Virus record (IMG/VR): IMGVR_UViG_3300009499_000131
Coordinates: 1-31,494 of that record
DNA: 31,494 bases
From: a virus
Direction: 5' to 3' (one strand)
Part shown: positions 7,891 through 31,494 of the stretch, piece by piece
How positions within the stretch are numbered: position 1 is the first letter of the stretch
How the letters are laid out: every line of letters begins with the position of its first letter
Made by a program: the position numbers and the translations under genes
Notes under the pieces: generated by a model
Databases searched by the model: none
Told to the model about the DNA's origin: nothing
Seen by the model: only the letters and a program-made list of their open reading frames with translations

Positions 7891-9015
7891 TTATTTGTCT
7901 GTGTGTTGTCTCTTGATTGGCGAACGCTTCACACTTTTCATCAAGTATCCAGCTCCGATTTTAGCTTCAATAGTACAAGGCACTTTATGTTTCTTAAGTG
8001 CTTTTCTGAGGATCGCAATATACGCACGAGTTGTCTCCTCGGCTTGATTACTTTCGCGTTGTTCAGCAGCCTTGTTCACCTCGCTGAAACTTACGATTTT
8101 AGGCATGTAATTTACAAGCAAATGCAACATCTTAATAGGTCTTCCGGCTGGGAGTTCAAGGTCTTTTTTGTCAAAGAAGGCTTGGTTTGATGCAAATGTG
8201 AATAGGTCCTTTACGTTTCTTTTGCGCTTTTTGGCTTTAGTTGTGCCCGCGGCTAAATCAGCTTTCACCTTCTCGATGGCAACAGTAATCCCGCTTTTCA
8301 TCTTTCTGCTCAAATCGCTTATTGTTAGCCATATAACTCCAGCCATTTGGTCAGCCCAAGTCCTATCGCTATCACCCCTCAAATCAAAGTATATCCTTTC
8401 GTCTATTGCTTCTGTTGATTGAGCATCGTGAATAATCGCAAGCAGAACATAATAGATCATCAACTTTTCGTCTTTATTTAGGTCTCTCGGCTGTGGTTCG
8501 GGTTCGTTTTCGGATATATAAAATTCGAGCAATGCGGATAACTCGGGGTCTGGAAACCAGTTGACAAATTCAGGGATCGGTTTTTTAAATGGGAGCATCC
8601 AATAACCTTCGTTATAATTTTTCTTGTATTGTTTCTTTGGTGTCAACACGGCCACGCCATTTTTTACTGGCACTGCTTTGCCACCTACCATCAAGTATGT
8701 GTCCGCTTTTATCGTACTATAGTTCATCGTTTGGTTAATTCCTTTTCTTTTTTCCTTTCCGAAACTCTTATGCCAAATCATACCTTTTTGCGGGGGCTTT
8801 TTAGTCTTTTTTCTTAATCGAGGTTTTTTTTTGGCGGCTTCCTCAGATTTTTTGAGATGCTTGTTGAGCTGAGAAAAATAGCGCTCACCTTCTTCCATTA
8901 AAGGTTTTATATGGTCACGAAACTTCTTCAAATTTGCTGGCTCGGCAATCATAGAACTCACTTTGTCTTTTGTGTCGGCCAGAAATTCTCTATATTCCTG
9001 TTCGTCCATTATCAA
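7891..9015 (-). CDS. Protein with C-terminal OmpR-type winged helix
   Basis: 374 residues (an ATG at 9009 is an alternative start). The N-terminal third is charged and helical, with a Lys-rich stretch at about 60-75. The middle (residues 90-250, with DTYLMVGGKAVPVKNG and GYWMLPFKKPIPEFVNWF) is not recognised. Residues 299-360 fit the winged-helix effector domain of response regulators: LLVNYMPKIVSFSEV, ETTRAYIAILRKALK and the wing IEAKIGAGYLM, compare the family pattern IxxLRxKL and IxTVRGxGYxL. No receiver domain is present. It could be a transcriptional regulator of the element. The 7771-7890 gap downstream holds no gene. Confidence 0.68.
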   Translation of the reverse strand: MIMDEQEYREFLADTKDKVSSMIAEPANLKKFRDHIKPLMEEGERYFSQLNKHLKKSEEAAKKKPRLRKKTKKPPQKGMIWHKSFGKEKRKGINQTMNYSTIKADTYLMVGGKAVPVKNGVAVLTPKKQYKKNYNEGYWMLPFKKPIPEFVNWFPDPELSALLEFYISENEPEPQPRDLNKDEKLMIYYVLLAIIHDAQSTEAIDERIYFDLRGDSDRTWADQMAGVIWLTISDLSRKMKSGITVAIEKVKADLAAGTTKAKKRKRNVKDLFTFASNQAFFDKKDLELPAGRPIKMLHLLVNYMPKIVSFSEVNKAAEQRESNQAEETTRAYIAILRKALKKHKVPCTIEAKIGAGYLMKSVKRSPIKRQHTDK

Positions 9016-9031
9016 TCATTCAAAAATTTGT

Positions 9032-9724
9032 TTAAGGCACAGAAGCCAGTTTTCGCTTGGACCGCTCCAAGTGCTTGAAGCGTCTGTGGCCGTAAAACCT
9101 CCAGCGATTGCTTAAAACAAACAACGTTATTGGGAATTGCTTCGCCGTTCGCCGCTTCCTCTCTGATATGTCAATCAGTCCAACTTCGATGAGTTGGTCG
9201 ATTCCTCTTGTGAATTTATCGGCTGATATACCACGATTCAAAGCCTCCTCGTAGGTAAAATCAAACTGTCCGTCATTGCTTGCGTTGTGTTTTTCTAAGA
9301 AGATTTCAAAGACCTCGCGAGCAGCATCAGTTCGTAGAGCCTGGTAAGCCGCTGACTTTAATAACACATCTGGTATCTTGCTCATCGTTTTTGTTTTCTG
9401 GGGATTGACGGTCTCAGGCGTCAAAGTTCGGAAAACATCACGAGACCCGACCGATACGCAGGTTGTAACTTTGTACCCGGCTGATAGCATCTTTTGGGAA
9501 TGCTTACTGAGCTCCCAAAACGGGAAACTGACTACCGGGACAATATCACCACTTTTGTCTCTATGCTCCCACGGTAAACCACAAACACTCCAACAGAGCT
9601 CGGCATCTTCAAAAAAACCCTCATAACAATCGTTTATACGAAACAGCAAAATGCTATCAGGATATTTGACTTTGAGCCGCTGGTGTGCCTTCCTCGCAGG
9701 GCTGATTTTTGTTTTCGTAGCCAT
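9032..9724 (-). CDS. MutS domain I fused to a winged-helix domain
   Basis: 230 residues. Residues 14-92 follow the N-terminal mismatch-recognition domain of MutS closely: HQRLKVKYPDSILLFRI, CYEGFFEDAELC, and AGYKVTTCV in place of the family's GYKVAICEQ. In MutS the motif GDFYE stacks its Phe on the mispaired base. Here it reads NDCYE (residues 31-35): Glu35 is kept but the Phe is Cys33. None of the other MutS domains (clamp, ATPase) is present. Residues 130-212 (AREVFEIFLEKHN, YEEALNRGISADKFTRGIDQLIEVGLI, LFVLSNRWRFYG) look like a winged helix as in plasmid or phage replication and regulatory proteins. ATG 9724 has AAGGAG upstream. It may recognise altered or distorted DNA; this is inferred. 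Confidence 0.72.
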   Translation of the reverse strand: MATKTKISPARKAHQRLKVKYPDSILLFRINDCYEGFFEDAELCWSVCGLPWEHRDKSGDIVPVVSFPFWELSKHSQKMLSAGYKVTTCVSVGSRDVFRTLTPETVNPQKTKTMSKIPDVLLKSAAYQALRTDAAREVFEIFLEKHNASNDGQFDFTYEEALNRGISADKFTRGIDQLIEVGLIDISERKRRTAKQFPITLFVLSNRWRFYGHRRFKHLERSKRKLASVP

Positions 9725-13258: not shown

Positions 13259-14332
13259 ATGGGGACTGTAGAAATCAAGCTTGCTCAAAAGCCCTTACGG
13301 CTCCACAAAGCCATTGTGGAGCCAGCCTTCGGAGAGCCAACCATTCTTGCGGGAAACGCCTGGGACTACGTTTCAATGTGGCTTAAAAGAAACAAGAACG
13401 GAAAGCGAGAGGAAGCGCTATATTATTGGGAGCAGGCACGTTGTTTCTTTGAAGCAACGCTACGATTGCCGAATGATTCCGCCTGTCTTACGGCTTACTA
13501 TTGCATGCTCAATGCCACAAAAGCTCTACTTTCAACCAAAGGGAAACCTCTTCCTGGTAAGCACGGCGTAACTGGCAAGCCTTCATCGTCCCGAGTTTCC
13601 CTTGTCGGTGAGCAGATCACCTTCAGCCGAGGTGGCATCCTGGCCGCACTTCGCAACTATCTGCTCGAACCAACTCGAACTGAAAAATACTCAATAAAAG
13701 ACCTTTTCTATAATCTTCCATACATACACCGGGCTTTTAAACTCACATATTCTTCTTCTTCTATACCCGAGTTGTTTGTTCCAGTGGAGAATCCCCGCTT
13801 CGTCAGGAAGAGAAAGTCAGATGAAGCTTGGTTCTGTGTCAACATTGCGAATCCTCGTTATGCAAACCGATACACGCTAAACAACCTACCGAAAGGTTAC
13901 CAACGCGATGACGGGGAAGAAAACGAATTTGTGGTTCGCAGAAAGAGACGTTTCAAATGGTCTCGGTCGACATCACAGAGGAAGCAGAACAAGGCGCGAC
14001 TCATTAACTATCACCAAGCAGTGCGAAAAAGCTTCTGTTACATTCATGCAACCAGAACCTTGTGGTATTTGAAAAAAGCACTTCAGACAAGTAGCGCAAG
14101 CTGTCCAAAGGTAATTCATCGTAGTTCGCTCACCATGACTTTTGCAGCCATGCATCGCCTTAGCGAGTTGGCGCGATATCAGCCAAAGCGTTTTATGAGA
14201 CATTTCGATTTGCAACAGAACTGGTTACTGTGTGAATTTATCCGTATTTCGCCAGAGCAATTCATCGATGAAATTTCATCGGAAATCACCGGGCGCGAGC
14301 TATTGAGCCCAGGGATAAGACCAAAGTCCTGA
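13259..14332 (+). CDS. YaaC-like protein
   Basis: 357 residues. The sequence follows the YaaC-like family: WEQARCFFEATLRLPNDSACLTAYYCMLNATKALL (about 58-92), KHGVTGK, YSIKDLFYNLPYIHRAF, and the C-terminal signature HRLSELARYQP, WLLCEFI, SPEQFIDEISSEITGREL. Members are helical, HEPN-related in fold, with unknown biochemistry; HExxH or nuclease motifs are not seen. In this position, between a HEPN-like and a PIN-like gene on a phage element, a defence or toxin role is plausible. The gene is complete. Family assignment is by recognition of the sequence pattern. Confidence 0.7.
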   Translation: MGTVEIKLAQKPLRLHKAIVEPAFGEPTILAGNAWDYVSMWLKRNKNGKREEALYYWEQARCFFEATLRLPNDSACLTAYYCMLNATKALLSTKGKPLPGKHGVTGKPSSSRVSLVGEQITFSRGGILAALRNYLLEPTRTEKYSIKDLFYNLPYIHRAFKLTYSSSSIPELFVPVENPRFVRKRKSDEAWFCVNIANPRYANRYTLNNLPKGYQRDDGEENEFVVRRKRRFKWSRSTSQRKQNKARLINYHQAVRKSFCYIHATRTLWYLKKALQTSSASCPKVIHRSSLTMTFAAMHRLSELARYQPKRFMRHFDLQQNWLLCEFIRISPEQFIDEISSEITGRELLSPGIRPKS

Positions 14333-15721: not shown

Positions 15722-18700
15722 TCATTTGACTGTTTTAATCAGGCCGCCGATCTTTGCATAAATCTGTTTACGTTCATCAATCGTTTTAGCCACCCGCAAT
15801 TTCTTCCAAAACAGAGATATGTATCTATTTCGATTGTTAAGTTTTCTTCTCCTCAAATCCATTTTGCTGTCCGGCTTGATTCTGTCGGATTGATACATCC
15901 GATTCAGAAGCTCCATCTCGCTGTAAAAATCTTCAATGGATTTTTTAGGTGCGTAGGGGTCACGGAGAAACAGAGTTCCAATCAAAGGCCAGTCCTTTGG
16001 CGTTAGTTCTTTCCCCCTGTGCCCTGTGGCTAATTCAGTACTCTTGGCGATCCTGCGATAAATGCCGCCCGAGTAGCTGTTCAAGGCATACTCTATCTGA
16101 GATGGCGATTGCTTGAATATCTTACCTAATGTCTTGGCGAATGCTGTCGTGTAGTCGTTATACTGGTCCTCGGGCATCTTCCCTTCGACCGACCTCGGTA
16201 CTATTGGCCGGTCTGCCCAATCCTTGTTGCGTCTTATGTCCAGGTACGGTCCTATGGCTGCCGGCCAATCGAACAGCGGCTTTATATCGGCTTTGTAAAC
16301 CTCACCGAGAAAGTCTGTTATCTTTCCAGGGTCCACCGTATAGAGAGCATCAATCACGGTCACTGGCATACTTTGGAAGATATGACCCATCAAGAACGGT
16401 ACTGGAATGCGAAGAACATAATCAAGCTCCTTGCCTATTTTGTATTTCGCAACGAACCGGCCTAATAGCGGCACTTGTTTGATTCTCTTAAATACTGGGA
16501 TATGAATATGATTTGCCTTCTCGTAAGCGGGTAATTCTTTGTACCATTTTTCATCTTTGTTCAACCACCAAATACCAACAGCAGGTAATGTCAAAACACT
16601 CAGGCCCCACAACATAGCTGATTTAGGTCTCTCCTGAAATGTGCGATAGACTTTGGACATATCCTGGGCGTTGGCGTTCCAGAAGGTGATCATCGAGTTC
16701 AGCCATCTACCGTACAGTCCCGCTCGGCGGTAGTTGATTGTCTGGTCTGAAGCATACTGAAAGGCGTAAACAATAGCATCCGGTGGTGGCTCACCACCTT
16801 GAGTTTGGTGCTTTGCCATCCAATCTTTTAAGGCCCTCTCAAATTCCTCGATCCGCAGCCCGGATTCAGGTATTCCGAATAAAGCTCGCATCGCATCAAC
16901 GGGGTGTCTGACAGTGCGGATAGCATGACCAGCAACGGTGTTGGTGAGCATATCACCTTTCAGGTGTTGTATGCCGGTCCTGTCCTGTCCCAAGTATCCT
17001 GATATTTGACCACCAATATCTGAAAATCTTTCCGCTGCCTTATTAGCATCTATGCCTAACGCCTTCGCCAGGCCAGTATAGGAAAGGTCTTTTGCCACTC
17101 CTTTCGCAAAAGCTACTGGTCCCCGGGCATATCGTGCCTTTACCGTTGTATCCAAAATGTCCCTGATAGGATTTCTTACCAGACCGAAGGCGGCATGAAT
17201 TCCTGTTGCACCTAACCGGCAAAGTCTGTTAGCTTTTCCCAATATCAGATTGAGCAGTTTTGGTAATTGGAATTGGTCTAAATCCTCAAGGACCCGATAG
17301 AGTTCCGGGGCCACTTGATACCACTGCCTCTTGCCGTCAACTATGACAGAGATGATATGTTCCTTACCGAGAAAAATTGGTGAGTTTCCAAAGACGGTAA
17401 GCATTGCATCGTCAAGATCGCCGGGAACTACATCAATTCCTAAATCAATCAGTTGTTTCTTTAGCTGTTTAGCATCGAATGTAGTAGCTTTCATGGGGGG
17501 CGGCACTCTCTCTATCAGCCCTGCCAGGCCCGGGGTTTTTCGTTCTACTTCCGCTAATGCCCTCGCTATCATTGACTTATGTGCTATTGAAATAAGCCTG
17601 CGGGTTTGCGTTATCATAGACTCAAGCGGGTCCTCGATGGGCCTGCCGGAACCTATGATTTTATAAACTCCCTTACCGCGTTTGATAAGGCCCCGGCCAA
17701 CACCTTTCGGAGTTCGTCTTTTTTCGCCCGGCGCAAATGACCTGAAAAACGGAACGTAAACAGGATTGAGCTCTCTCATTCGCCTGGCGGCTTCTTCTTC
17801 CAGACCACCAGCTTGAACAAGATAACCAAGTACCCTGTGATTCCATTCGGTTAATTCGAGAGCAATTTTCTCCCATTTTAGCGAATGATACTTCTGATAA
17901 ATATACAGGGCGTCTTCATTGTCAAAACCTGATTCCAGCTCTCTCGAATGAAGGGATATCGCCCTGACAGCAACCACATACCTCATAAAGTCTTTAATCT
18001 CATCCGCTACAGGTCTCAGAACTTCCTTTAACGATTTACCGGTTACATTGCCCCATATATCAATGGTATGATCTATCACAAAGGTTCTTGCCCGGGCCCC
18101 TTCTGTCTGTGTCAAGAATCCAAATAGAAAACCGGGGTCCTTGCTGCCAAATTCCAGACTCCTCGATGGTACGTTCTCCTGCAGGGCCCTTTGTATCGGA
18201 GTTGATACATCGGCCCAGGTTGTTGACCACCATAAACTGAAGCGTTCTTTCCAGTTTTTCAGTGGTTTGAGTTTTTGTGCTATCTGAGAATCAAATCTTG
18301 CTTCGGCCCCCTGTTCTTTCCACTGCTCTATCATGTCCTTTGCAGTATGCAGAATATCCGCTATGTCGGCATTGTCTTTTAAGTAGTTGTCCTCAAAGAA
18401 TTTTAACATTCGCGGAGCTTCTTTCTTCAGGTCGATGGCCCCGGTAAGCCAGCCGAAAACAAACTCGGCATAGCCTTCCATCTTATAACCGCCTTCCGGC
18501 CTTTTCTTGCCGTAAGCGGCTTTGCCTAACCGGACCAGCTCCGCGCCAAGACCGTACCAGGCGTGTGACATCTTCTTACTGGCGGTGTCATTGAAATATA
18601 CGTCTATATGATGGCCGACCTCGTGAGTTGCTGTTCGTAGATTATTGACGTTTCGTAACCGTATCCCCCTGGTCCTTTTGTTATACCATCCGGGCTTTTT

Positions 18701-21700
18701 CTTCCTGAATGTCGCTACTCCCTTAATCGAAACACCAAGAGCCTTGCTCAAATAGTTTACTATGTCTCTCTGTGAAATCTTGGCTGGTTTCGTCACACCT
18801 CGTTTTAATGCTATCTTGCGTGGTACTTTGGGTTCTGCTGCAAATCCAACGTCCTCGGGTTTGTCTCGGTGGGCATTATTGTATTCTCTCGCGGTTTCAG
18901 GCGCTGCATCATCGCTCTTTATCGAATTGCCCCTGCCTTTCAAATATACCAAAGCATCTAAGAGCTTGGCCGAACTGAAATCGGCCCGCATCGCTTGTTT
19001 CCATGTTTCAAATTCGCCTACTATTTCTCGTAGTCTTGAATCGCCGAAATATTTCAGGCCCCTGGCTTTAGACTTGGGCACTTCGATATAGGCGCTGTTT
19101 TTACCTGCTTTGAATATTCTGGCCTCGCCCACCTTAAGATGAAAAACGCCCCGGGGATTATCCATCAGATAAGCCACGGCCGCTTCGGGGATCATATTGA
19201 TAGATGTAGGCAGATCGTATGAAGGGTCGTAAGTCTTGGGCAAAAGTAGTCCCTGCCGTCTGCTGCCATCTGCCATCGTGTAATTGATAACTTTCGGCCG
19301 CACCTGTTTTTTGCTATTCTCGCTATCACCCACCAAAACACCCATTGCGGCAATTATGTTGCCGTTGGCGATGTATCGTTCTTCTTTCTGGTCCGTTGGA
19401 ATATTGAAATATTTATCGAGCTTGCCGTAAAAACGCTGTGAGTTTTCAAATTGTGCCAATGAAATAACAACCGACCGGGCAGGATGCGGTATCGCAATTC
19501 TGAGACGGATATTACTTGGGGCCGCTGGATTGATGGCGTATTCTTTCTTACCGAAAGTGTCTATGATTTCCAGGAGAATAAAGGGATTGCCTTCCGCATC
19601 TCTGCGGATTGACCCTAACTTTATTTGAGATAGCATACCCCGTGCTCTCTCATAAGCGGCTACAGTATTTCTCTTTACTTTTCTGCCTTTCCTGTTCAGC
19701 CCGGCTTCATATTCAGACCAGGCAAAATCAACTCTTTCTCTGATAAGACCCATATATGAATTGGGGCTTGATACATTAGCTTTTTCCACTACACTTTGAA
19801 TTTCGTCTTTTATCTCGATAGTGGTCATTGGCCGGCCTTCGAGGACAACGCTCATCTTGTCCAACGCAGCCGGCTCCTGAAAGACGTTGCCTGGCTCACC
19901 TACAAATATGGTCTTTGTCGTTACCTCCTCGGCCTTGTAGTCTTTGTCTGTGCTGATGAGTTCGTTCTGGTCGGTTTTAGTCAGATACTCAATTAGATTA
20001 TCAAACTCAGGCTCAGCCCAATCGTAAAATTCCTGCTGCTGCTCTACGGATAGTAACGCAAGCCTGCCGGTAAATCGCCTTGCTATCTTATCTTCATTCC
20101 AGGGACCGTGATAATTGCCCGTACCCATTGCATCTTCATATTTGCTTACTTCGATATCCAGACCCATTTGTCTTAGAATATCAGGATTTTGGGTGATATA
20201 TTGAGCAACAATGTATTCACCATAGAGATTAAGAATGTCGGGAATTTCTTTTTGCTGATATGCCCCTTTCGTCTTTGCCGAAGTATTGGCATTGAGGGAC
20301 CGCATCTTGTTCTCAAGGATAGCAGCGGGTCTTAACTCTGAGGGCAATGCCGTCATTAAAATCTTGTATTCCGGCTCAACCACCTGGCCTTTGCGATTGA
20401 TACGGCCTAAAATCTGTACGAATTTGTTGATGTCAGCCGCAGGTTGAACAACTATCATTACCCGCTGCTCTTGGTTCCTGAACTTCACAGAAGCGTGTGC
20501 GCTCATTCCCTCAGCGCCTGCCACGTTGACTATTAAAGCGTCCGTATCGCCATAGTTGTAATCGTAAACTATACTTGTCTTATCACGTTCAGCCGAGGAC
20601 CGAAGGGCCAGCTCGTATTTGTCTTTTCCTTTTTTAATCAGTCGCTTATCTCGACCTGTTATCTCTCCAACCTTATAGCCCTCTACCTCAAGCTGGCTGA
20701 TAATCTCGTCAATAGGTGAGCCCGGCAGGTCCAACTCCATTTCTTTTATGTGATTCTCTGTGGCATGGTAGGCATCCTGTAAATCTAAAGGCAAATCGTC
20801 CACTTTCACATATACAACTTCAACATCACCCCAACTATAGACTTTTTGATAACGCAAAGTATTACGCAGCATATTCAGCATGACTTCACGGTAATCAAAG
20901 TCGCTGATAATATCACCAGCATCAAGACCATTCTGTTTAACGTATCGGTCCAGGAATGAGCCCATTGTATTTTCCAAAGCGACAATAGGCCGTTTCCCCG
21001 CCTGTAACGCTTGTATCACCTGGTCCACTGTTTCGTCTATCTTCAAGGCCAACAGCATTTGCTTAATAGCATTATGAGCAACAGCGGCAAAGTTAGTGTG
21101 CCCTATGGTAGTACCAACACTTTTGGTCCTTTTAGCTTGAGCCTTGGCCTCTTTCTTCTTTGGCTCGATTACTGTACCTGCAAATCGTTCGTCAAAAGAA
21201 ATTATCTGCCTGAATACTTCCGTGACTTTATCAGCTCGCTCAGTATCCCTCTCGAGATGTCTCGCATCAATAGTCGTTTCGTATTTCACGCCAGAGAAAT
21301 CTAACTCCGTCCTTATGTACGAATTCGCCCTTGCAAGAGCAGCGGCAATAACTTCCTGGTACGGCTCACCACCGGTTTGGACCGCTTCCAGCATATTGTC
21401 CCTGTCACCATCGAAGGCATCTAAGAGTCCGGTCCGGGCATACAACGTCATAGTCTTGGGGGTCTTTGCGTAAGTAGCGGAACTAAACAATACCCCGGAT
21501 GAATGAGGAATAAGCATTTCTCTGATGTATTCACCCGTCTGACTTTCGCCGGCGGCGTTATGGGATTCATCGAGAATGAGTAGCTGACCTTTAATAAGCT
21601 CTGCGATCTGCATCCTCTGTTTGCGAGTTTCGGTATTGACTTGATGATAAGTCGATAATACCAAATTGTAATCCTTGTCTCTTATCGCCTTATGAATTGC

Positions 21701-24700
21701 CCTGTCCGCGGCTGGCCTACTCCCATGCTTTTTGAATACTACCCTGTTTTTCTGGTCTTTAATATCAACATCAGCGTTCATCATCAGGGGTTTTATCTGG
21801 TCTTCGGTAAGCCCCACGTCAAACAGGTCCCGGAAAAAATCAGTGAATAGATGTTTGCCGGAAGTGAAAAATATCGGCTTCCTGCCGTTCAGTATCTCCC
21901 GCCTAACCAACGCAGCTCCCACCCGGCCCTTGCCAACACCTGTCTGATGGCCTACTATTAGAGCAGAGCCTTTATCAATCCTGTCCAACGCCAATGCCAC
22001 TGAATCAATCTGCGTGGCGGATAAATGTCCCCACATCTCCGTATTTGATTTGTACTGTAGCTGCTCCCGAACGTAATCGTCAATGTCACCTACGCTCTGC
22101 TGTAGTTTTTCTAATGCAGCGGTAACGTGTGGCTCAAGATATGTAGGGATATTTTCGTTTGGTGCGGGTGCTTTTGAGGATGGTTTGTACTTTACTTGAA
22201 GTTTGCCTAACGCAGTAGGTCCCACCATTCCCACAGGCTTACGCTTCTCAGCTCGTTTAACCTCTGGTTTTCGTCTAAGTTCTTCAATAGCGGGTCGCTC
22301 TTTGCGTTCCGCAGCAGCTCTTTCTTCCGCTGCGGGCTCGCGTTCAAATACAGAAGGCTTTGAGACAGGAGATGGTTCTGGTTGTACCTCTCGCTCGCCA
22401 GCAGGAACTCTACTAGGTCCGGATCGTTCCCCGGGTAGTCTTCCAGCAGGCCCTCGTTGAGTAATTCGTTCACCAGCCCCGCCCTCGACCTCTGGTCTCT
22501 CGCCAGCCGGTTCAATCGGCCTGCCAACAGGTCCTCGTATTTCTGCCAATTCTTCGGCGGTCCGTTCTTCAGCTCCACGCCCAATAGCCTCAGCACGTCC
22601 AGGCTCCTCTCCGGTGGTGGTATATGTAGTTTCTGCTGGCTCATTTGCCAAAATCTCCTTCATCATATTATACACTTCCGACCAGCTCTTTGCTCGGAAA
22701 ATTCCTGCTTTTGGACCATAATTTTCAGATTTTTTTCGGCCATGAATCGCTATGATCCTTACAGGCCAAGCGGCTCCCTGTCGGCGGTATAGATCGCCCG
22801 CTACCTCAAAGTCGCCTATCACGTTGTAATGACTGTAAATGTAGTTCCCGAATATCCATTCCGGGGTGGAATATTTACCCATTTTCTTGGGTGCGGCGAT
22901 AATCATTACGGCCCGGCCTTCGTCCCGCATCGCCTTCAAATTCTCCGCCGCTATGATATGCTCGATGTGTGATAGTTTGAATCCGTCAAATCTAACTTCT
23001 TTGTGCTTCCCGAAAGGTGGGTTCATTATCACCGCATCGGATATAGGTTCAAGATATGCTTTGCGGGCGTCGTTTTCAGTTACACTTGCATAACCTTGAG
23101 AACGAAGTATTTCTGCCCTGGTAGGGTCAATCTCATTGACAATGACATTAGCAGGATCAGCCACGATAGTAAGCATACCTGTCCCGGCTGTGGGTTCGTA
23201 CACTACCGTACCCGGGCCAATATGAGCTAATTCGCTTGCGATAAAGGCCAACGGAGCCGGCGTTGAATATGCCTGCCCTTCAATTGATGTTCCTGTTCGG
23301 GCAGTAAGGATCGGTTGGCGATCGTATAATTCCACTAAAGCGTTTATTGTTTCTTCGGAGTACCCTCTGTTTTCTTCTACAATGCCCCTGGCCGCCTTCA
23401 CTATGGCCAGTTCCATCGCTTCCTGTACTTTCTTGTGCGAATATCCTTTTTCGGGCGTTAAGTCAGCTCGTGATACTCCTAACGCATCCGCCACCCATTG
23501 CTTTACCTGCCTATTATCAATTGGTTCCGTTGAAGTCTTTAATCGTTCTGAAAATCTATCGGCAAGGCCAACTACGTTGATATTGTCAACTGTACCTATA
23601 TTAGCTATGGTAGGGGGCTGGGCTTGTCGTCTTCTTGTACGAGCAAGCATCTCACCATCGAGTATCTGAATACGTCTTTCCAATGCCTTTGCCTCTGGCG
23701 TTTCTGGTAGTTCCCAACTTTCTTGAACAATAGTCTGCATAGCATCTAAATCATTTTGCTTAAAAGCAATATCCGCTCGCTTGCTTAAATCTGCTATCTT
23801 AGCTTCTGGTGCTACTTTTACCGCCTCTGGCTTAGTTATTGGCGCAGTGGATCGTACAGGAGGTGGAATGACCCCTGCAGAGGGTTGTTTAGGTATGGTA
23901 GTTGGTGATATTTTAACGGCTGCCCGTTGTGCCGCTCTTATTGGGTGTTTTATCATTTGGCCGATTTCTTTGGATGTTTCTATGACCTCGGCCACTTTGG
24001 TCATTGGCATTTCGATAAACGGTTTTGTTTTCCCAAGACCTGTCTTTAGTGCTTCCACGCCCTTGAGCAATGGCCGGCCAGGTTCCAGACCATACCTAAT
24101 CATCCTCTCAGCGGCTCTTTGTGGTGATTCAACTGCTTCCTGGCCTAACTGATAAAGTGTGTCTCCCTTTATCCCGAGTAATTGAGCCTCTGCGGCAGAG
24201 ACTATTTTATCAATAGCTTGCATTTCCGCTTTTTTGAGGGATGTCAAACTGCTGTATGCAGCAGATTTCGCCGTGCTTTTAGCCATAGCATCAACTTCTC
24301 GGAGCTTACCCGCGAAACGACTATTGCTCGCTTTGACAAGAGCATTGCGTAAACGGCTTGTATATATCGCGGTGTCAACTTCACTGGCAGTTTGAAAAGT
24401 CCCGGCAATCGCACCGACTAAGGCAGCTCTCTTGCCAACGTGCTTTATAACCTCGCCGGGTTCCATATCCTTGCCAAGCACTTCGGCCCCCGCCAGTATT
24501 CCGCCGACACCCAAACCTTTTTCAACTGCCTTAGTTATATTTGCGGCCCGGGCATATCCACGAGGGAACTTTTCCGCTAACTTTGTCAGACCACCCATTT
24601 TCTTAATGGCTTCGGTAGCTTTGGCCACCCTGGGTATCTTGCTAATGGCTGCTCCACCTATACCAACAGCTTTGAAAAGAGTAGGATATATTATGCCCCA

Positions 24701-25303
24701 TTCAATCGCAAGGGTTCCAGTTTCTCCGGCCGCCAACATTAAAGCTGGACCAAAACCGGCAAAATTTTCGGCTTCTTCAACTAATTGTTTTTTGAAATCC
24801 TTGCCACCTAATCGACCTCCAAGAGTTGGATAATATTTCAATGCCCACTTGAGGCGGTCGGGAATTTCCTCGGCCATTCTGTCAGATTCTTCACGAGTAT
24901 ATGGCGTGGTAGGTGATACCATCTCCCTTATGCCTTTGAAGATTTCTGGGATACCAACGTCAACAGGTTTCTTTTTTTCGTGTCCCAACCGCTCCCTCAT
25001 CGTTCTGGTATCGCCCGACTCATCCCACATAGGACCTAACCCTATCCCAGTAGATTTCTGTTGCATCGGTATTGGCTTAGTTAGAGGATATATTTTGCCC
25101 GAAGGAGAGGTGTATTGTTTAAGACCCATTCGGCGATATATTTCAAGGTCAGCTTCGTTGGGTTCGATAAGGTCTTCGGCTGTAGGTGCGGGTTCTTCTT
25201 GGAGTGTAGGCTTTTTTACTCCCGCAAGCTCTTCAAGAGAACGGATGGGAGCTTTGACAATGGAGGTTTTGACGCCAGCAAGCTCTTCCAGGGTTTTTAT
25301 CAT
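15722..25303 (-). CDS. Giant polyvalent protein: DNA methyltransferase, DarB/Sno-like helicase, metallopeptidase, LPD38-like
   Basis: 3193 residues from ATG 25303. Order: N-terminal twin LEELAGVK repeats (5-12, 23-30); Gly/Ala-rich hydrophobic region (about 170-290); adenine-type methyltransferase with EPTAGTG at 703-709 and NPPF at 761-764; low-complexity Glu/Arg/Pro linker (about 890-1020); SF2 helicase of Strawberry-notch/DarB type with GHQTGVGKGR at 1118-1127, DESH at 1245-1248 and QILGRINRKG at 1630-1639; zinc peptidase HEVGHH at 2227-2232 with E2280 as likely third ligand; then about 900 mostly helical residues with an LPD38-like segment from 2871 (FWNANAQDMSKVYRTFQERP). Polyvalent proteins of phages are thought to enter the host with DNA and counter defences; P1 DarB is the classical case. 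It closes the right-arm operon. Confidence 0.88.
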   Translation of the reverse strand: MIKTLEELAGVKTSIVKAPIRSLEELAGVKKPTLQEEPAPTAEDLIEPNEADLEIYRRMGLKQYTSPSGKIYPLTKPIPMQQKSTGIGLGPMWDESGDTRTMRERLGHEKKKPVDVGIPEIFKGIREMVSPTTPYTREESDRMAEEIPDRLKWALKYYPTLGGRLGGKDFKKQLVEEAENFAGFGPALMLAAGETGTLAIEWGIIYPTLFKAVGIGGAAISKIPRVAKATEAIKKMGGLTKLAEKFPRGYARAANITKAVEKGLGVGGILAGAEVLGKDMEPGEVIKHVGKRAALVGAIAGTFQTASEVDTAIYTSRLRNALVKASNSRFAGKLREVDAMAKSTAKSAAYSSLTSLKKAEMQAIDKIVSAAEAQLLGIKGDTLYQLGQEAVESPQRAAERMIRYGLEPGRPLLKGVEALKTGLGKTKPFIEMPMTKVAEVIETSKEIGQMIKHPIRAAQRAAVKISPTTIPKQPSAGVIPPPVRSTAPITKPEAVKVAPEAKIADLSKRADIAFKQNDLDAMQTIVQESWELPETPEAKALERRIQILDGEMLARTRRRQAQPPTIANIGTVDNINVVGLADRFSERLKTSTEPIDNRQVKQWVADALGVSRADLTPEKGYSHKKVQEAMELAIVKAARGIVEENRGYSEETINALVELYDRQPILTARTGTSIEGQAYSTPAPLAFIASELAHIGPGTVVYEPTAGTGMLTIVADPANVIVNEIDPTRAEILRSQGYASVTENDARKAYLEPISDAVIMNPPFGKHKEVRFDGFKLSHIEHIIAAENLKAMRDEGRAVMIIAAPKKMGKYSTPEWIFGNYIYSHYNVIGDFEVAGDLYRRQGAAWPVRIIAIHGRKKSENYGPKAGIFRAKSWSEVYNMMKEILANEPAETTYTTTGEEPGRAEAIGRGAEERTAEELAEIRGPVGRPIEPAGERPEVEGGAGERITQRGPAGRLPGERSGPSRVPAGEREVQPEPSPVSKPSVFEREPAAEERAAAERKERPAIEELRRKPEVKRAEKRKPVGMVGPTALGKLQVKYKPSSKAPAPNENIPTYLEPHVTAALEKLQQSVGDIDDYVREQLQYKSNTEMWGHLSATQIDSVALALDRIDKGSALIVGHQTGVGKGRVGAALVRREILNGRKPIFFTSGKHLFTDFFRDLFDVGLTEDQIKPLMMNADVDIKDQKNRVVFKKHGSRPAADRAIHKAIRDKDYNLVLSTYHQVNTETRKQRMQIAELIKGQLLILDESHNAAGESQTGEYIREMLIPHSSGVLFSSATYAKTPKTMTLYARTGLLDAFDGDRDNMLEAVQTGGEPYQEVIAAALARANSYIRTELDFSGVKYETTIDARHLERDTERADKVTEVFRQIISFDERFAGTVIEPKKKEAKAQAKRTKSVGTTIGHTNFAAVAHNAIKQMLLALKIDETVDQVIQALQAGKRPIVALENTMGSFLDRYVKQNGLDAGDIISDFDYREVMLNMLRNTLRYQKVYSWGDVEVVYVKVDDLPLDLQDAYHATENHIKEMELDLPGSPIDEIISQLEVEGYKVGEITGRDKRLIKKGKDKYELALRSSAERDKTSIVYDYNYGDTDALIVNVAGAEGMSAHASVKFRNQEQRVMIVVQPAADINKFVQILGRINRKGQVVEPEYKILMTALPSELRPAAILENKMRSLNANTSAKTKGAYQQKEIPDILNLYGEYIVAQYITQNPDILRQMGLDIEVSKYEDAMGTGNYHGPWNEDKIARRFTGRLALLSVEQQQEFYDWAEPEFDNLIEYLTKTDQNELISTDKDYKAEEVTTKTIFVGEPGNVFQEPAALDKMSVVLEGRPMTTIEIKDEIQSVVEKANVSSPNSYMGLIRERVDFAWSEYEAGLNRKGRKVKRNTVAAYERARGMLSQIKLGSIRRDAEGNPFILLEIIDTFGKKEYAINPAAPSNIRLRIAIPHPARSVVISLAQFENSQRFYGKLDKYFNIPTDQKEERYIANGNIIAAMGVLVGDSENSKKQVRPKVINYTMADGSRRQGLLLPKTYDPSYDLPTSINMIPEAAVAYLMDNPRGVFHLKVGEARIFKAGKNSAYIEVPKSKARGLKYFGDSRLREIVGEFETWKQAMRADFSSAKLLDALVYLKGRGNSIKSDDAAPETAREYNNAHRDKPEDVGFAAEPKVPRKIALKRGVTKPAKISQRDIVNYLSKALGVSIKGVATFRKKKPGWYNKRTRGIRLRNVNNLRTATHEVGHHIDVYFNDTASKKMSHAWYGLGAELVRLGKAAYGKKRPEGGYKMEGYAEFVFGWLTGAIDLKKEAPRMLKFFEDNYLKDNADIADILHTAKDMIEQWKEQGAEARFDSQIAQKLKPLKNWKERFSLWWSTTWADVSTPIQRALQENVPSRSLEFGSKDPGFLFGFLTQTEGARARTFVIDHTIDIWGNVTGKSLKEVLRPVADEIKDFMRYVVAVRAISLHSRELESGFDNEDALYIYQKYHSLKWEKIALELTEWNHRVLGYLVQAGGLEEEAARRMRELNPVYVPFFRSFAPGEKRRTPKGVGRGLIKRGKGVYKIIGSGRPIEDPLESMITQTRRLISIAHKSMIARALAEVERKTPGLAGLIERVPPPMKATTFDAKQLKKQLIDLGIDVVPGDLDDAMLTVFGNSPIFLGKEHIISVIVDGKRQWYQVAPELYRVLEDLDQFQLPKLLNLILGKANRLCRLGATGIHAAFGLVRNPIRDILDTTVKARYARGPVAFAKGVAKDLSYTGLAKALGIDANKAAERFSDIGGQISGYLGQDRTGIQHLKGDMLTNTVAGHAIRTVRHPVDAMRALFGIPESGLRIEEFERALKDWMAKHQTQGGEPPPDAIVYAFQYASDQTINYRRAGLYGRWLNSMITFWNANAQDMSKVYRTFQERPKSAMLWGLSVLTLPAVGIWWLNKDEKWYKELPAYEKANHIHIPVFKRIKQVPLLGRFVAKYKIGKELDYVLRIPVPFLMGHIFQSMPVTVIDALYTVDPGKITDFLGEVYKADIKPLFDWPAAIGPYLDIRRNKDWADRPIVPRSVEGKMPEDQYNDYTTAFAKTLGKIFKQSPSQIEYALNSYSGGIYRRIAKSTELATGHRGKELTPKDWPLIGTLFLRDPYAPKKSIEDFYSEMELLNRMYQSDRIKPDSKMDLRRRKLNNRNRYISLFWKKLRVAKTIDERKQIYAKIGGLIKTVK
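15854..15878 (+). repeat. 25 bp exact repeat, copy 2
   Basis: Lies in the last 50 codons of the polyvalent gene, encoding KPDSKMDL on the minus strand, and is identical to 12027-12051. This is probably the source copy because it lies in an intact frame. Confidence 0.75.
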
Positions 25304-26336: not shown

Positions 26337-27239
26337 TTAATATCTTGCATACATTGCACCAGCTTGAGGTGTTACAGTACCTACTGTTGGCATTCCTCCT
26401 CCGCCACGAGAAAATATATTACCCCCTCCCCCTAACATCATAGCCATAGCCGCTGGCCCGGCAATCTGGCTGAACGTACTCGGGCCCGTATCACCCGGAT
26501 CGTACATTTGCCTCGTCTCTCCTAATATCGTACCTGCTGCGCCAGCCGGACCCTCCTGCTTATACGGGAACAACAGCGTTTGTAATAGTGCGAGATAATC
26601 CGCCTCATCCTGGGCCGTCTCTATCTGTCTGGGCAGGCCGCCGTATGCCGTCGCCGCCTCCGTTTTTCGCAGTGGTGCTTTTGAGGCGTAGTCGCTGGCC
26701 TCTATCAACGGCCCCGCCGCCCCCGTCTGCCGTTCCCTCTCGCGGTCATAGAGCGCACCTAAGTAGCCCATCCGGTCGGCTGAATACCCCCTCCTGGTAG
26801 CCCCCTCCTGCTTCAAGGCTGGGCTGGAAAAATCACCGTGACCCACTAATTGCAGCCGTCTCCTCAGCTCGTTTATCGCCTCCTCCTCCTCCATCTTCGA
26901 GGCCTCCCGGTATCCCTGGTAGGCCGGTGAGGTCATGGGGTCGTAACCGCCTTCCACCGTCTTTTTAAGCTGGCCTATCCCCGTCGTTATCCCGCTGGGA
27001 ATCCCCTTATTAAGATATTCCTGCAACCACTGCTGCCCCTCCGCTTCGATACCGGTCATACCCGGTATCTTTCGGGTCGGGAACTGTACGTTTTTCTTAG
27101 TGAGGCCTAAAAGAAATTTCCTGGCCTCACTTTGTTCCGGCGAATCAGGAATACTCTGAAAGCCGCCACCGCTATTCTTTGAAGCCAACATAGACCCGCC
27201 CGTTGCTATTGCTGTGGCCCCTATCAATGCCCACGACAT
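26337..27239 (-). CDS. Gly-rich virion-like protein, candidate internal/ejection protein
   Basis: 300 residues. The N-terminus MSWALIGATAIATGGSMLAS is hydrophobic and Gly-rich, followed by SIPDSPEQSEARKFLLGL, helical repeats with many Glu and Arg, and a C-terminal hydrophobic Gly-rich patch (AGPAAMAMMLGGGGNIFSRGGGGMP). This pattern (helical body with hydrophobic Gly/Ala ends) is common in podophage internal virion or DNA-ejection proteins. GAGGTG precedes ATG 27239, which overlaps the cupin-like gene by 16 bp. I do not recognise a named family. Confidence 0.55.
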   Translation of the reverse strand: MSWALIGATAIATGGSMLASKNSGGGFQSIPDSPEQSEARKFLLGLTKKNVQFPTRKIPGMTGIEAEGQQWLQEYLNKGIPSGITTGIGQLKKTVEGGYDPMTSPAYQGYREASKMEEEEAINELRRRLQLVGHGDFSSPALKQEGATRRGYSADRMGYLGALYDRERERQTGAAGPLIEASDYASKAPLRKTEAATAYGGLPRQIETAQDEADYLALLQTLLFPYKQEGPAGAAGTILGETRQMYDPGDTGPSTFSQIAGPAAMAMMLGGGGNIFSRGGGGMPTVGTVTPQAGAMYARY

Positions 27240-27814: not shown

Positions 27815-28024
27815 TTAATTGACTTTACAAAGGCCCGCCGCCCCCAAAAAGCGGGAACCACATCCCTGAGATTTGACGGCGGCTTGGACCAAAGAAATCA
27901 CGGCACGCTCTTTGACAAATCGAGACCCGTCTCGATGAACAATCGATTCAGGGCGAATTTTCTCCAAGCCAGAAATGAAATCATCAATGAGCTTGTTCAG
28001 TAGCGGGTCGCTCTCTGCAAGCAT
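27815..28024 (-). CDS. Small unknown protein
   Basis: 69 residues from ATG 28024. AAAGGGG precedes it and the previous stop lies 1 nt before the ATG, so I chose this start over an upstream in-frame ATG at 28099. The product has a helical first half (DPLLNKLIDDFISGLEKIRPESIV) and ends with Gly and Cys residues (GCGSRFLGAAGLC). No family recognised. Confidence 0.55.
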   Translation of the reverse strand: MLAESDPLLNKLIDDFISGLEKIRPESIVHRDGSRFVKERAVISLVQAAVKSQGCGSRFLGAAGLCKVN

Positions 28025-28025
28025 T

Positions 28026-28442
28026 CTATAACCCCTTTCCTTCTCTGCGTTGATTTTCCAACAACCACAAACGCATAGAACCCTCGACATTCGAGGCATC
28101 CTGCATCAAACCGGTAAAGGCCGTGAAGGATATATGACCAGTTTTGTAATACCCACAAACATGCACAATCAATTCAGTCAGCGGTAACAATTTACAAAAC
28201 ACCGAACAGACCGCTTCGCCTAAATCTTTATCGGAACAATTCATCAATGCCTCGCACCGCTGCAGGTATTCTTCATGTGTGGGCTTCAACACTGCGTATA
28301 TCCTGCGGTCTGGATTTGCCGCGACTGCCAATTGACCGGGTTCAGTGTTCTCAAGGTCAGAAACGAAAGGTCCTAACACATCGGGAGGTAACTTGGCGAG
28401 CCGATCTATCACAGCTTCTATGAGTTTACTTTTAACATCCAC
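28026..28442 (-). CDS. Downstream ORF of a probable frameshifted gene pair
   Basis: 138 codons from a possible GTG at 28442, but the frame stays open upstream through GAA GAA, GGT and AAA codons to the A9 run. A -1 shift at 28454-28460 in the 41-codon frame enters exactly this frame, giving a continuous 172-residue protein starting MFTQLRQSIAAVETART. The body is helical (SKLIEAVIDRLAKLPPDVLGPFVSDLENTE, EEYLQRCEALMNCSDKDLGEAVCSVFCKLLPLTELIVHVCGYY). No family recognised. Making it from the GTG alone would need a ribosome binding site that is not clear. Confidence 0.55.
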   Translation of the reverse strand: MDVKSKLIEAVIDRLAKLPPDVLGPFVSDLENTEPGQLAVAANPDRRIYAVLKPTHEEYLQRCEALMNCSDKDLGEAVCSVFCKLLPLTELIVHVCGYYKTGHISFTAFTGLMQDASNVEGSMRLWLLENQRREGKGL

Positions 28443-28543
28443 TTCTTCACCAACTTTTTTTTTACCAGCTCCTGTTTCGCTTTATCGAACACCGTCCTTG
28501 CTGTTTCTACGGCTGCTATGGATTGCCTTAACTGGGTAAACAT
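28418..28543 (-). CDS. Upstream ORF of a probable frameshifted gene pair (41 residues)
   Basis: ATG 28543 to TAG 28418, with GAGG 8 nt upstream and an overlap with the previous stop region. The product starts MFTQLRQSIAAVETARTVFD and ends KKLVKKWMLKVNS. The last codons of the zero frame look like chance sequence, whereas the -1 frame after the slippery run continues into a well-formed protein. Confidence 0.5.
   Translation of the reverse strand: MFTQLRQSIAAVETARTVFDKAKQELVKKKLVKKWMLKVNS
28454..28475 (-). promoter_or_regulatory. dnaX-like -1 slippery site A AAA AAG with upstream AGGAG
   Basis: In the 28543 frame the codons read GTA AAA AAA AAG. The heptamer A AAA AAG is in the correct phase for -1 slippage, as in E. 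coli dnaX, and AGGAG lies 8 nt upstream of it, close to the dnaX stimulator spacing of about 10. After the shift, reading continues GTT GGT GAA into the 28442 frame. A sequencing error in the A9 run would give the same picture. Confidence 0.5.
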
Positions 28544-28743
28544 TCTACTACCTCTTTCTGGGCTTTGGACTTTTGTGCAAGATGTGTAAGCGACCCACGT
28601 ACCTCTAGTTCACAGAATCTAAGTCGCCCATTCACATCCAGATACGGAATGTCATCGCTTTTGACCAGCGCCCTCAAGAATTTCTGCGGTAAACCCAATC
28701 GTATTGCCAGAGATTCTAATGTAATGTAACTATAATCATTCAT
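28528..28743 (-). CDS. Small MerR/excisionase-like HTH protein
   Basis: 71 residues from ATG 28743 (an upstream in-frame start at 28767 is less likely). SYITLESLAIRLGLPQKFLRALVKSDDIPYLDVNGRLRFCELEVRGSL fits the HTH_17 pattern: helix-turn-helix, short wing with G-R-L-R-F, and a C-terminal helix. Such proteins work as recombination directionality factors or regulators. It lies downstream of two recombinases, so it may serve as their accessory factor. The stop overlaps the next start. Confidence 0.6.
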   Translation of the reverse strand: MNDYSYITLESLAIRLGLPQKFLRALVKSDDIPYLDVNGRLRFCELEVRGSLTHLAQKSKAQKEVVECLPS

Positions 28744-28856: not shown

Positions 28857-29141
28857 TTATTGGTATTTCTGCAAATACTCACCTGGCAGCTTGTCGGTAG
28901 GTAGGCTCCATTTTCTCTCGCTTACTTGGAAAAAAGGGTATATCCTCTTTTCCCTCCAACTCCGCATTGTACCACGGGATACACCAAATATGACTGCCCA
29001 TGTCGCCATGGACAAAGGTTTTGACATCCGTGGAGCGGCCAAATCACCTTTCTTTGAAACAATATTTTCCACGCGACTAAGACCAGCTTGTAGGTCCTCC
29101 AACTGCTGATTCATGTCTTTAATGTGTCTTTTTTTGGCCAT
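28857..29141 (-). CDS. HTH protein with coiled-coil start
   Basis: 94 residues. The first 30 (DMNQQLEDLQAGLSRVENIVSKK) form a short coiled coil. Residues 42-80 (LSMATWAVIFGVSRGTMRSWREKRIYPFFQVSERKWSL) make a MerR-like or phage HTH with recognition helix GTMRSWREK. No ribosome binding site is seen before ATG 29141. It lies just after the recombinase pair and may regulate it or bind its recombination sites. Confidence 0.55.
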   Translation of the reverse strand: MAKKRHIKDMNQQLEDLQAGLSRVENIVSKKGDLAAPRMSKPLSMATWAVIFGVSRGTMRSWREKRIYPFFQVSERKWSLPTDKLPGEYLQKYQ

Positions 29142-29213: not shown

Positions 29214-30101
29214 TCATAAGTCCTTATTATTACTTGCATTTACAGAGGCATTCAATGTCTGCTCTGTATTGTCTTTGGATGCACCACAACCGACCTCTCT
29301 GCGAAACAGCCTAAGACTCTCCGTAATCCCCGTTTTTAGGCTCTTAGCGTAGATTCCCGTGGTCCGATAGTCCTCATGTCCGAGCTGCTCCTTGAGCTGT
29401 TTTAGGTTGCCAGATGAATTTAGGAATAATGTGGCAAAAGTGTGTCTCAGGGAATATGGTTTGAGCTCAGGAAACCCGGCCTTTTGGAAAAGTTGCTTAA
29501 CCATGTAATATAAGCCCTGATAACCCATCGGCTTGCCCCGCGTGTTCAGAAATACAAACTCGTTTTTTCCAGCTGCCCCTCTGGTATCCTCGATATGTTT
29601 TTCCAGTATGGCTCTTAAAATCTCATCAATATCAACGACCCGGGCCTTGTGTCGCTTGCTCTTTTTTATATCGATCTGCGATTTACCTGAGTTGATCCCC
29701 AAATCTTTCACTCTTAAGGTACAGAGTTCCGATGGCCGTAAACCTGCACATAAGAGGATTTCAAAAACCACCCGTTCTCGTGCGCTGCATACCTGCCGGC
29801 ACTTTTCTATCTGTATTTTTGTTAAGTAGTCCGTGGATTCCAAACCCGTCTTATGCCGCCTTTTCTTGTCCTTTGCCTCAAAATCCCCTGCAGCCGCTCG
29901 AAGCAGAATGATCTTAATTATCTGGCCTGACCACAGCTTGCCTGTCTGTGTCCTATGCCCCTCGATGTTTAGCTCGCGGGCTATCTGCCAGGGGCCCAGC
30001 ACCTTCTTGCCTTTGCGTGGTTGGGCTTTGCGAACAATTATCGCGATTACATCCCGCTCACTTTTAAAATGCCCGTATGGTTTTCTACCGACTCTACTCA
30101 T
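29214..30101 (-). CDS. Tyrosine recombinase, downstream member of a tandem pair
   Basis: 295 residues from ATG 30101, which overlaps the stop of the upstream recombinase by 8 bp. Catalytic residues: R122 in GLRPSEL, R219 and H220 in SLRHTFAT (the usual first His of HxxR is Tyr), a His in LGHED and nucleophile Y251 in TTGIYAK. The N-terminal segment (GPWQIARELNIEGHRTQTGKLWSGQIIKIIL) strongly resembles the recognition segment of large serine recombinases rather than a SAM-like core-binding domain. The last 30 residues (Asn/Ser-rich) are extra. It probably acts with the upstream recombinase on a shared site. Confidence 0.85.
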   Translation of the reverse strand: MSRVGRKPYGHFKSERDVIAIIVRKAQPRKGKKVLGPWQIARELNIEGHRTQTGKLWSGQIIKIILLRAAAGDFEAKDKKRRHKTGLESTDYLTKIQIEKCRQVCSARERVVFEILLCAGLRPSELCTLRVKDLGINSGKSQIDIKKSKRHKARVVDIDEILRAILEKHIEDTRGAAGKNEFVFLNTRGKPMGYQGLYYMVKQLFQKAGFPELKPYSLRHTFATLFLNSSGNLKQLKEQLGHEDYRTTGIYAKSLKTGITESLRLFRREVGCGASKDNTEQTLNASVNASNNKDL

Positions 30102-30852
30102 TACTCGGAGCACCCCCTGCTTTTTTGTTTAGGGTCCGGGCGTATATGTGAGTGTCCGCGTTCTCGTACCCTAATTTGTCCTTAACCAGAAACTCGTTGC
30201 CGGTAACATCCAACAAATACATTCCAAATGTATGCCTGAATGTGCGCGGGCTCAGTCTGGTTTTGAGCGTTCCATTTTTACGGTAAAGCCATATCCCCGC
30301 CCCTATCCCAATCACCTTGACCTTGCCATATACAGACTGCCTGGTCATCTTCTTTCTCTGCTCGTTGCGAAACAAAAGACTCTCTAAGCTGTGTCCTCTA
30401 TGGTAAAGCCTTACATATTCACCCAGCCTCTTCTTAAGGTACTCCGATATCCTGATGGTCCGGTCCTTTTGGCCCTTACCATCCACTATCTCAATCTCTA
30501 ATTTACCGTGATACGATGGTAGGCTGCTTAGTCTTAGGTTACAGAGTTCAGAAGCCCTCATCCCCGTCTCTAACAACAGGACAACTATCATCTCGTTTCT
30601 CACCGCCCGGTTCAGGGTCCTGCTCTCTTTGGCCTTGATAAATTTTAGTATCTTGGCTACCTGCTCCAACGATAGATAGTCGGTCGGCTTCAAATACTTT
30701 TTGGGTTTTCTTTTCTTCCGGCACTTGGCCTGGTAATGGGCGTGCCTTCGCTCCTCGGCCATACGGACAACATCTCTGCTCAAAGGATCCTCGCTGTGCC
30801 GCCTGGCATATTCCTGGAGCTGCTGTCTGGTTAATATTTTCTTGCGATTCAT
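30094..30852 (-). CDS. Tyrosine recombinase, upstream member of a tandem pair, atypical active site
   Basis: 252 residues. R99 in GMRASEL, R206 and H207 in TFRHTFG and Y237 in THIYAR are present. The first His of the HxxR motif is Arg and the later His of LGH is Tyr (LGYEN). It may be a weak or structural partner of the downstream enzyme. The N-terminus (about 60 residues, basic) is short for a core-binding domain. It is distinct from the integrase at the left end and shares little sequence with it. Confidence 0.82.
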   Translation of the reverse strand: MNRKKILTRQQLQEYARRHSEDPLSRDVVRMAEERRHAHYQAKCRKKRKPKKYLKPTDYLSLEQVAKILKFIKAKESRTLNRAVRNEMIVVLLLETGMRASELCNLRLSSLPSYHGKLEIEIVDGKGQKDRTIRISEYLKKRLGEYVRLYHRGHSLESLLFRNEQRKKMTRQSVYGKVKVIGIGAGIWLYRKNGTLKTRLSPRTFRHTFGMYLLDVTGNEFLVKDKLGYENADTHIYARTLNKKAGGAPSNE

Positions 30853-30999
30853 AACCTATGCTCTCCTTTCTTTGCCGCCATAATGTAACGCTTTAACTTC
30901 CAAATTGTGCGATATAGTCCTATTATACCCTTTTCAAAATTGCCCTCAAAATTCTGCACTCTAAAGGGTGTTTCGAGACACTCTGTAAAATTAACTGTA

Positions 31000-31230
31000 T
31001 TAGGATGAGACATTTTGTTTCCTGTAATATTTCCTTTGGTTTTCACGGTTGGTTTTTCGGCGGCGTCTCTTAGAGCAATCATCGCAATATCTTTGTCTAT
31101 ACCGCAACCGCTCACAACCACAATCGGGACACTCTCTCAGTAAAAACCGACTCTGCTTTTCAATCCTGTGAGTATTTCTCGGTGTCGCATGGTGCGGCTG
31201 ATTTCCCCAATCGCCAATAAGTTCAATCAT
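31000..31230 (-). CDS. Small zinc-ribbon protein
   Basis: 76 residues from ATG 31230 (AAGGA about 10 nt upstream). RECPDCGCERLRYRQRYCDDCSKRRRRK carries two C-x2-C knuckles (CPDC and CDDC) of a zinc ribbon, followed by a basic tail with NRENQRKYYRKQN. It is the first gene of the right-arm operon, directly behind the bipartite site. Possibly a DNA- or RNA-binding regulator. The 30853-30999 stretch after it holds no clear gene, only a weak overlapping frame ending in the recombinase start. Confidence 0.6.
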   Translation of the reverse strand: MIELIGDWGNQPHHATPRNTHRIEKQSRFLLRECPDCGCERLRYRQRYCDDCSKRRRRKTNRENQRKYYRKQNVSS

Positions 31231-31331: not shown

Positions 31332-31361
31332 GACAACGGTCTTAATCGGTGTTACTGTCTA

Positions 31362-31377
31362 TATAATTGCTGGCGTG
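31362..31377 (+). promoter_or_regulatory. comF -10 box and predicted leaderless start
   Basis: TATAAT at 31362-31367, then 7 nt to GTG 31375. Transcription from this box would begin at or next to the start codon. No ribosome binding site is seen. A TTGACA at 31330 is too far away (26 bp) to be its -35 box. Confidence 0.4.
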
Positions 31378-31494
31378 AATACAACAAAGCCAAAACGAGC
31401 TTTTAACTTTGCTTTGCAGGGCTTAAACCAGCTTCTTTGGCCGGCAGTGTGTATCAATTGCGGCGAAAACATCTGTGAAACAGATAACAACCTG
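31375..31494 (+). CDS. comF: ComF-like phosphoribosyltransferase-family protein (5' part)
   Basis: 40 codons from GTG 31375 to the window edge. LLWPAVCINCGENIC with C26, C29 and C34 fits the N-terminal zinc-binding segment of ComF (LLxPxxCxxCG). ComF helps DNA uptake during competence; its C-terminal PRTase domain lies beyond the window. It is a host gene divergent from folC and marks the right flank. The start is uncertain because no ribosome binding site is seen. The frame is open further upstream to TTG 31330. Confidence 0.75.
   Translation, partial: MNTTKPKRAFNFALQGLNQLLWPAVCINCGENICETDNNL

Follow-up and report, generated by a model that had tools for sequence, protein, structure and literature searches.

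Two overlapping frames on the minus strand, of 41 and 138 codons, meet at a run of nine A residues near the right end of IMG/VR record IMGVR_UViG_3300009499_000131 (31,494 nt, the whole of which is called the window below). The best reading of this junction, which we hold tentatively and with somewhat less than even confidence, is that it comprises two separate, overlapping and probably coupled genes. We infer that the second gene is initiated at GTG 28442 and that translation of the 41-codon frame yields a product in its own right, a 41-residue peptide. The features on which the argument turns are as follows.

28418-28543, minus strand: 41-codon ORF, with its ATG at 28543 and its stop at 28418-28420
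28026-28442, minus strand: 138-codon ORF, with a GTG start and its stop at 28026
28455-28463, minus strand: run of nine A (T9 on the plus strand), read GTA AAA AAA AAG in the 41-codon frame
28454-28460, minus strand: heptamer A_AAA_AAG in the 41-codon frame, with A_AAA_AAA one codon before it
28469-28473, minus strand: AGGAG, 8 nt 5' of A_AAA_AAG, a possible upstream stimulator or merely Gln-Glu codons
28447-28451, minus strand: GGTGA, 4 nt before GTG 28442, a candidate Shine-Dalgarno (SD) sequence for an independent start

A sequence-only reading of this DNA had proposed a programmed -1 frameshift here, and its description of the anatomy stands: the frames, the heptamer and the SD-like word are all present, and a codon signal is found on both sides of the run. 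The two ORFs overlap by 25 nt, the second lies in the -1 frame of the first, and the reading's GTA AAA AAA AAG, from which a -1 slip enters the frame of the 138-codon ORF, is exact. A slippery heptamer of the X_XXY_YYZ pattern is thus present in the zero frame at the junction. The -1 frame is open from 28481 down to the stop at 28026, and a -1 change at the run gives 30 + 142 = 172 codons without a stop, which bears out the predicted fusion length of 172 residues. Such a change could join the frames within a span of about 64 nt, bounded by the TAA of the -1 frame at 28484 and the stop of the 0 frame. AGGAG lies where it had been placed, and its 8-nt spacing is inside the 6-17 nt that PMC4066793, as excerpted, gives as effective for an upstream SD-like stimulator. 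The 41-codon ORF has an SD-like AGAGGT ahead of its ATG. What is unsupported is the word programmed, since there is no specific 3' structure among those folded, no conserved site (no close homologue having been found), and a plausible start that belongs to the second frame itself.

Coding on both sides of the run, with the frame changing at or near it, is supported by a log-odds codon score whose training set was 14 of the element's ORFs and included no part of the ORF pair. The first 26 codons, before the run, score 7.55 bits in the 41-codon frame, like typical coding windows of the element; this value is reached by 0.19% of shifted windows, both kinds of comparison window being drawn from the training ORFs themselves. 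The 138-codon frame scores 27.7 bits, and the alternative frames in the two segments range from -11 to +0.8 bits. The best frame-change point coincides with the run, at codon 25-30, and not with the GTG; shifting it there costs only 1-3 bits. The codons GTT GGT GAA GAA, which separate the run from the GTG, have a score of +3.9 bits in the -1 frame, above that of the other frame's first four.

GTG 28442 has the surroundings of a start codon, in that a candidate ribosome-binding site precedes it and the upstream frame's stop lies 22-24 nt downstream of it. The duplex of GGTGA with the 16S tail has a strength of -9.4 kcal/mol, which falls within the range of the element's other starts and is equalled at 5.2% of 6230 internal codon positions; relative to this GTG, GGTG keeps the register that it has where the ORF at 26337-27239 starts. 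The conserved domain of the 138-residue protein lies wholly after the GTG, so the product initiated there would be complete for that domain. An upstream extension of the 138-codon frame was considered and rejected, as there is no ATG, GTG or TTG between TAA 28484 and GTG 28442. Overlaps are common in this element: with start choices made mechanically, those between neighbouring listed ORFs measure 29, 49, 4, 16, 16, 20 and 4 nt. If the two frames are separate genes, both would belong to an operon that adjoins the integrases of an element integrated in a sediment planctomycete, and the 138-residue protein would initiate alone at GTG 28442 with GGTGA as its ribosome-binding site. Ribosomes ending the 41-codon frame 24 nt further on would aid initiation at the GTG (translational coupling). 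The nine A residues would lie in the overlap by composition (Val-Lys-Lys-Lys), and some fused protein may leak through them, though not as a designed route.

How unusual is the run? Because several neighbouring ORFs of the element overlap, and because the locus was picked for these very features, the chance figures for a nine-A run plus an SD-like word at the junction are post hoc and suggestive rather than conclusive proof: codon shuffles put the probability of such a run within the 64-nt joining span at about 0.5% and the observed rate puts it at 0.9%, and the background of an SD-like word 7-19 nt upstream is 2.1% for one of five or six bases (AGGAG, GGAGG or AGGGAG) and 12% for one of four. 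Strong in-frame heptamers occupy 16 of 7069 codon positions in the 14 coding ORFs of the element; four of the 16 are A_AAA_AAG, all inside uninterrupted ORFs. There are three nine-A runs on this coding strand, where codon shuffling predicts 1.6 (P = 0.23), and the other two sit in uninterrupted frames, one at 3597-3605 within the DnaB-like frame and one at 8824-8832 within the 7891-9015 frame.

Folding of the region 3' of the site gave z scores of -1.25, 1.12 and -0.22 in three folds, none of which stands out, and a strong local 3' stem was considered and rejected. A branched hairpin 3' of the site fits the rules in the excerpted part of PMC4066793, yet so do 33 of 60 background positions. In a survey of nine relatives of the host, rather than of the host genome itself, tRNA-Lys(CUU) was confirmed by pattern scan and ARAGORN in six genomes, including the two nearest (G001 and G002), whose folC is 92% identical. 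The same two methods found none in G003, a complete chromosome, and CUU-like strings in G004 and G005 were unconfirmed; of 7 loci checked for tRNA-Lys(UUU), all 7 had it confirmed. Most host relatives tested thus have two lysine tRNAs, and reliance on a tRNA-Lys(UUU) as sole, weak reader of AAG, as in E. coli, is not what they show. The likeness to E. coli dnaX that had been drawn holds for the heptamer and the SD-like word, and is weakened by the finding of tRNA-Lys(CUU) in genomes close to the host's. What is excerpted from PMC5009743 attributes E. coli dnaX slippage to that sole tRNA-Lys, reports that Thermus thermophilus, with two lysine tRNAs, slips by RNA polymerase at nine Ts, and names nine A or T as a run length that makes bacterial RNA polymerase slip efficiently. 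The coding run here is of that length. By analogy, the CUU tRNA would weaken slipping at AAG and leave slipping at A_AAA_AAA possible, and RNA polymerase would be the better slippage mechanism.

The conserved domain, recognizable by the string LYAVLKPT, occupies the first 70 or so residues of the 138-residue protein. The protein matches 0 profile families (Pfam at E 0.1, PHROGs at E 0.01) and no relative of it was found in the sets viral_contigs, phages, genome_contigs and plasmids, from which the records closest to that of the window may be missing. Scanning viral_contigs with profiles A2, A3 and A5 returned pattern matches and no confirmed relative, an exact pattern across the junction with run length left free had 0 matches in viral_contigs, and the A5 profile had 0 in a phylum sample of 392 genomes. 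Among 161 genomes of one order, that of a planctomycete matched by the left end of the window (described below), the fused query matched in 5 and the profile, at E <= 0.01, in 10; the weak profile matches L095 (which contains stops) and L096 were dropped before relatives were counted, and 10 places in 8 of the 161 genomes were kept, all remote. A sample of the class matched in 7 of 397 genomes, every one already among the order's relatives. Of five relatives, four are 43-49% identical across 39-60 residues and the fifth is 33% identical across 100, and the relatives have in common, whole or in part, the motif E-x-TE-x-GQ...NPDR-x-LYAVLKPT-x-EE-x-L-x-RI. We find this small family, to which neither Pfam nor PHROGs gives a name, in planctomycetes of Sedimentisphaerales type, where its members lie in prophages (L082, L083, L084, L085 and L086).

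It had been suggested that homologues be compared for the A-run and both frames, and that an uninterrupted frame with no slippery run would speak against a frameshift. All 10 related ORFs are single ORFs of that form, and a run of at least eight A is present in 0 of the 10, yet they share the domain and not the N-terminus and so are not decisive. Their N-termini differ from one another, none shares the 41-codon part, so that none tests it, and the searches gave no homologue for the 41-residue peptide. Six of the 10 start at a 4-nt overlap with the upstream ORF's stop (GTGA in four, TTGA in one, ATGA in one); tests on two of the six (L084 and L085) showed that the upstream gene is Mu Gam-like and differs from the upstream gene here. 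Across the three genomes tested for it, the Mu Gam-like neighbour is upstream in L084 and L085 and downstream in L082, and only the L085 match passes the curated Pfam score. An AlphaFold model built from the sequence of the 138-residue protein alone (mean pLDDT 57, pTM 0.36) was too poor for a fold search, and a search of the literature on planctomycete frameshifting and Sedimentisphaerales prophages gave no title treating this locus.

The surrounding DNA is that of an integrated element. A folC-like gene at the left end of the window is 92% identical to its counterparts in two planctomycete MAGs and has a Pfam match to the Mur ligase middle domain. The other titled matches are nearly all to Planctomycetota, many of them Phycisphaerae or Sedimentisphaerales. 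Positions 1-1187 and 31342-31494 match, at 92-95%, adjoining and slightly overlapping DNA of L003, which contains the empty site, and a 9-bp core, GTTACTGTC, is shared (window 1179-1187 and 31351-31359). With both host junctions in the window, the element is a complete integrated one of 30.2 kb beside folC. Among the ORFs of 1188-31341 scanned in PHROGs, matches to capsid, portal and large terminase are absent, and IMG/VR lists the record as a virus; the element, which encodes DnaB, DnaD-like and RuvC-like proteins and integrases, may be a satellite, or else an integrative element of non-virion type. At 29214-31121 (minus strand) a 90-residue ORF is arrayed in tandem with two tyrosine recombinases (overlaps of 4 and 20 nt), and a third integrase is at the other end of the element, at 1321-2502. 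Elsewhere, a minus-strand ORF of 3193 residues at 15722-25303, with DNA methyltransferase-like, strawberry-notch helicase-like and LPD38 regions, is a large polyvalent protein whose close relatives are absent from viral_contigs. The 230-residue protein at 9032-9724 (minus strand) matches MutS domain I (E 1e-14) and no further MutS domain, and a YaaC-like protein on the opposite strand (13259-14332, plus; Pfam E 5e-45), with no PADLOC match, is probable cargo. The ORFs nearest the junction are the following.

28528-28743, minus strand: 71-residue helix-turn-helix-like protein, ATG at 28743, overlapping the 41-codon ORF by 16 nt
28857-29141, minus strand: 94-residue protein, DNA-binding-like by eye, 55% identical to L098:1207-1548
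27815-28024, minus strand: 69-codon ORF directly downstream of the 138-codon ORF, with no PHROG match

The 71-residue protein matches HTH_17 at E 0.009, under the curated cut-off, and is 48% identical to L098:1642-1833; the profile of the 94-residue protein has matches in 7 of 161 genomes. L107-L113, seven loci with synteny of this helix-turn-helix pair, contain no relative of the 138-residue protein at tblastn E 0.05, and there is none among the ORFs of L098. The neighbour at 26337-27239 has no relatives in viral_contigs or phages.

Coupled genes are favoured by a domain that is complete from the GTG, by a well-placed GGTGA of -9.4 kcal/mol, by the 4-nt start/stop overlaps of 6 of 10 relatives, by the frequency of overlaps in this element, and by the occurrence of the other nine-A runs within uninterrupted frames. 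They sit less easily with the -1-frame coding signal between the run and the GTG, whose best change point is at the run by 1-3 bits, with a 41-residue peptide that has no homologue found and an overlap of 25 nt where relatives have 4, and with a nine-A run in exactly this span, a coincidence of 0.5-0.9% before allowing for the places examined. In the slippage reading, RNA polymerase adding one A, or a -1 ribosomal slip on A_AAA_AAA or A_AAA_AAG, would yield a 172-residue fusion beside the 41-residue product. The run is in the exact frame and the coding signal switches frame there, AGGAG is at an effective distance by the excerpted rule of PMC4066793, and a run of nine slips RNA polymerase efficiently, as in T. 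thermophilus dnaX (excerpt of PMC5009743). We nevertheless regard slippage as rather unlikely, given that no specific 3' stem stands out (z = -0.22) and the hairpin rules suit 33 of 60 background positions as well, that tRNA-Lys(CUU) in close host relatives disfavours a slip on AAG (though not on A_AAA_AAA), and that the site is conserved in no homologue found while two further nine-A runs lie in uninterrupted frames. Within it, slippage by RNA polymerase is somewhat likelier than a dnaX-type ribosomal slip. The full proposal that this planctomycete element slips on its nine A residues, by RNA polymerase aided or replaced by the ribosome behind AGGAG, and so makes two products of a previously unnamed domain family, one a peptide of 41 residues and the other a fusion of 172, is more doubtful still.

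Alternatively, there may be one 172-codon gene with a one-base difference in the run, whether an indel mutation, a contingency (phase-variable) run or an assembly miscount. Homopolymers are prone to both indels and miscounts, and the shifted-frame coding signal continues across the run; the excerpted text of PMC3711429 also says that a singleton frame transition, where the gene is not an orphan, is likely to be an indel or a sequencing error. We consider this reading rather unlikely as well: the two other nine-A runs lie in uninterrupted frames, and the first is within a spanning DnaB-like match, so the assembly coped with that length there. In the same excerpt, unclustered frame transitions may come from errors, from pseudogenes or overlapping genes that are orphans, or from programmed frameshifts in orphan genes, and coupling and recoding are not mutually exclusive; going by that text, our ORF pair is of this ambiguous kind. 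If slippage were true, the junction would be a case of RNA-polymerase or ribosomal recoding from Planctomycetota, in an operon beside mobile-element integrases. If it is false, the junction shows how A-runs in overlaps mimic programmed frameshifts, and that a host's lysine tRNA set is worth checking before dnaX is invoked.

E. coli dnaX, in which the SD-like word is spaced by 10 nt, shares with this junction an in-frame A_AAA_AAG and an upstream SD-like purine word (at 8 nt here). It differs in that close relatives of the present host have a CUU lysine tRNA, no specific 3' stem-loop stands out at the site, and conservation of the site is unsupported (0 of 10 remote relatives with at least eight A, none with the N-terminal part). 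The E. coli shift, moreover, ends one codon later (PMC5009743, in excerpt), whereas here it would lengthen 41 codons to 172. T. thermophilus dnaX is alike in its run of nine and in the two lysine tRNAs of most host relatives tested; there, however, the single ORF encodes the long product and slippage truncates it (same excerpt), whereas here slippage would join two frames. The LYAVLKPT proteins of transposable prophages from the same bacterial order share the motif ExTExGQ...NPDRxLYAVLKPTxEExLxRI, and have membrane-like (by eye) or helix-turn-helix N-termini, several of them adjoining Mu Gam-like genes; the 138-residue protein instead has a short charged N-terminus and a C-terminal extension of about 70 residues, and follows helix-turn-helix-like genes. 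Coupled overlapping genes of prokaryotes and phages resemble the pair in their short overlap, non-ATG start near the upstream stop and operon context, and differ in that the overlap here is 25 nt instead of 4 nt and has the nine-A run inside it.
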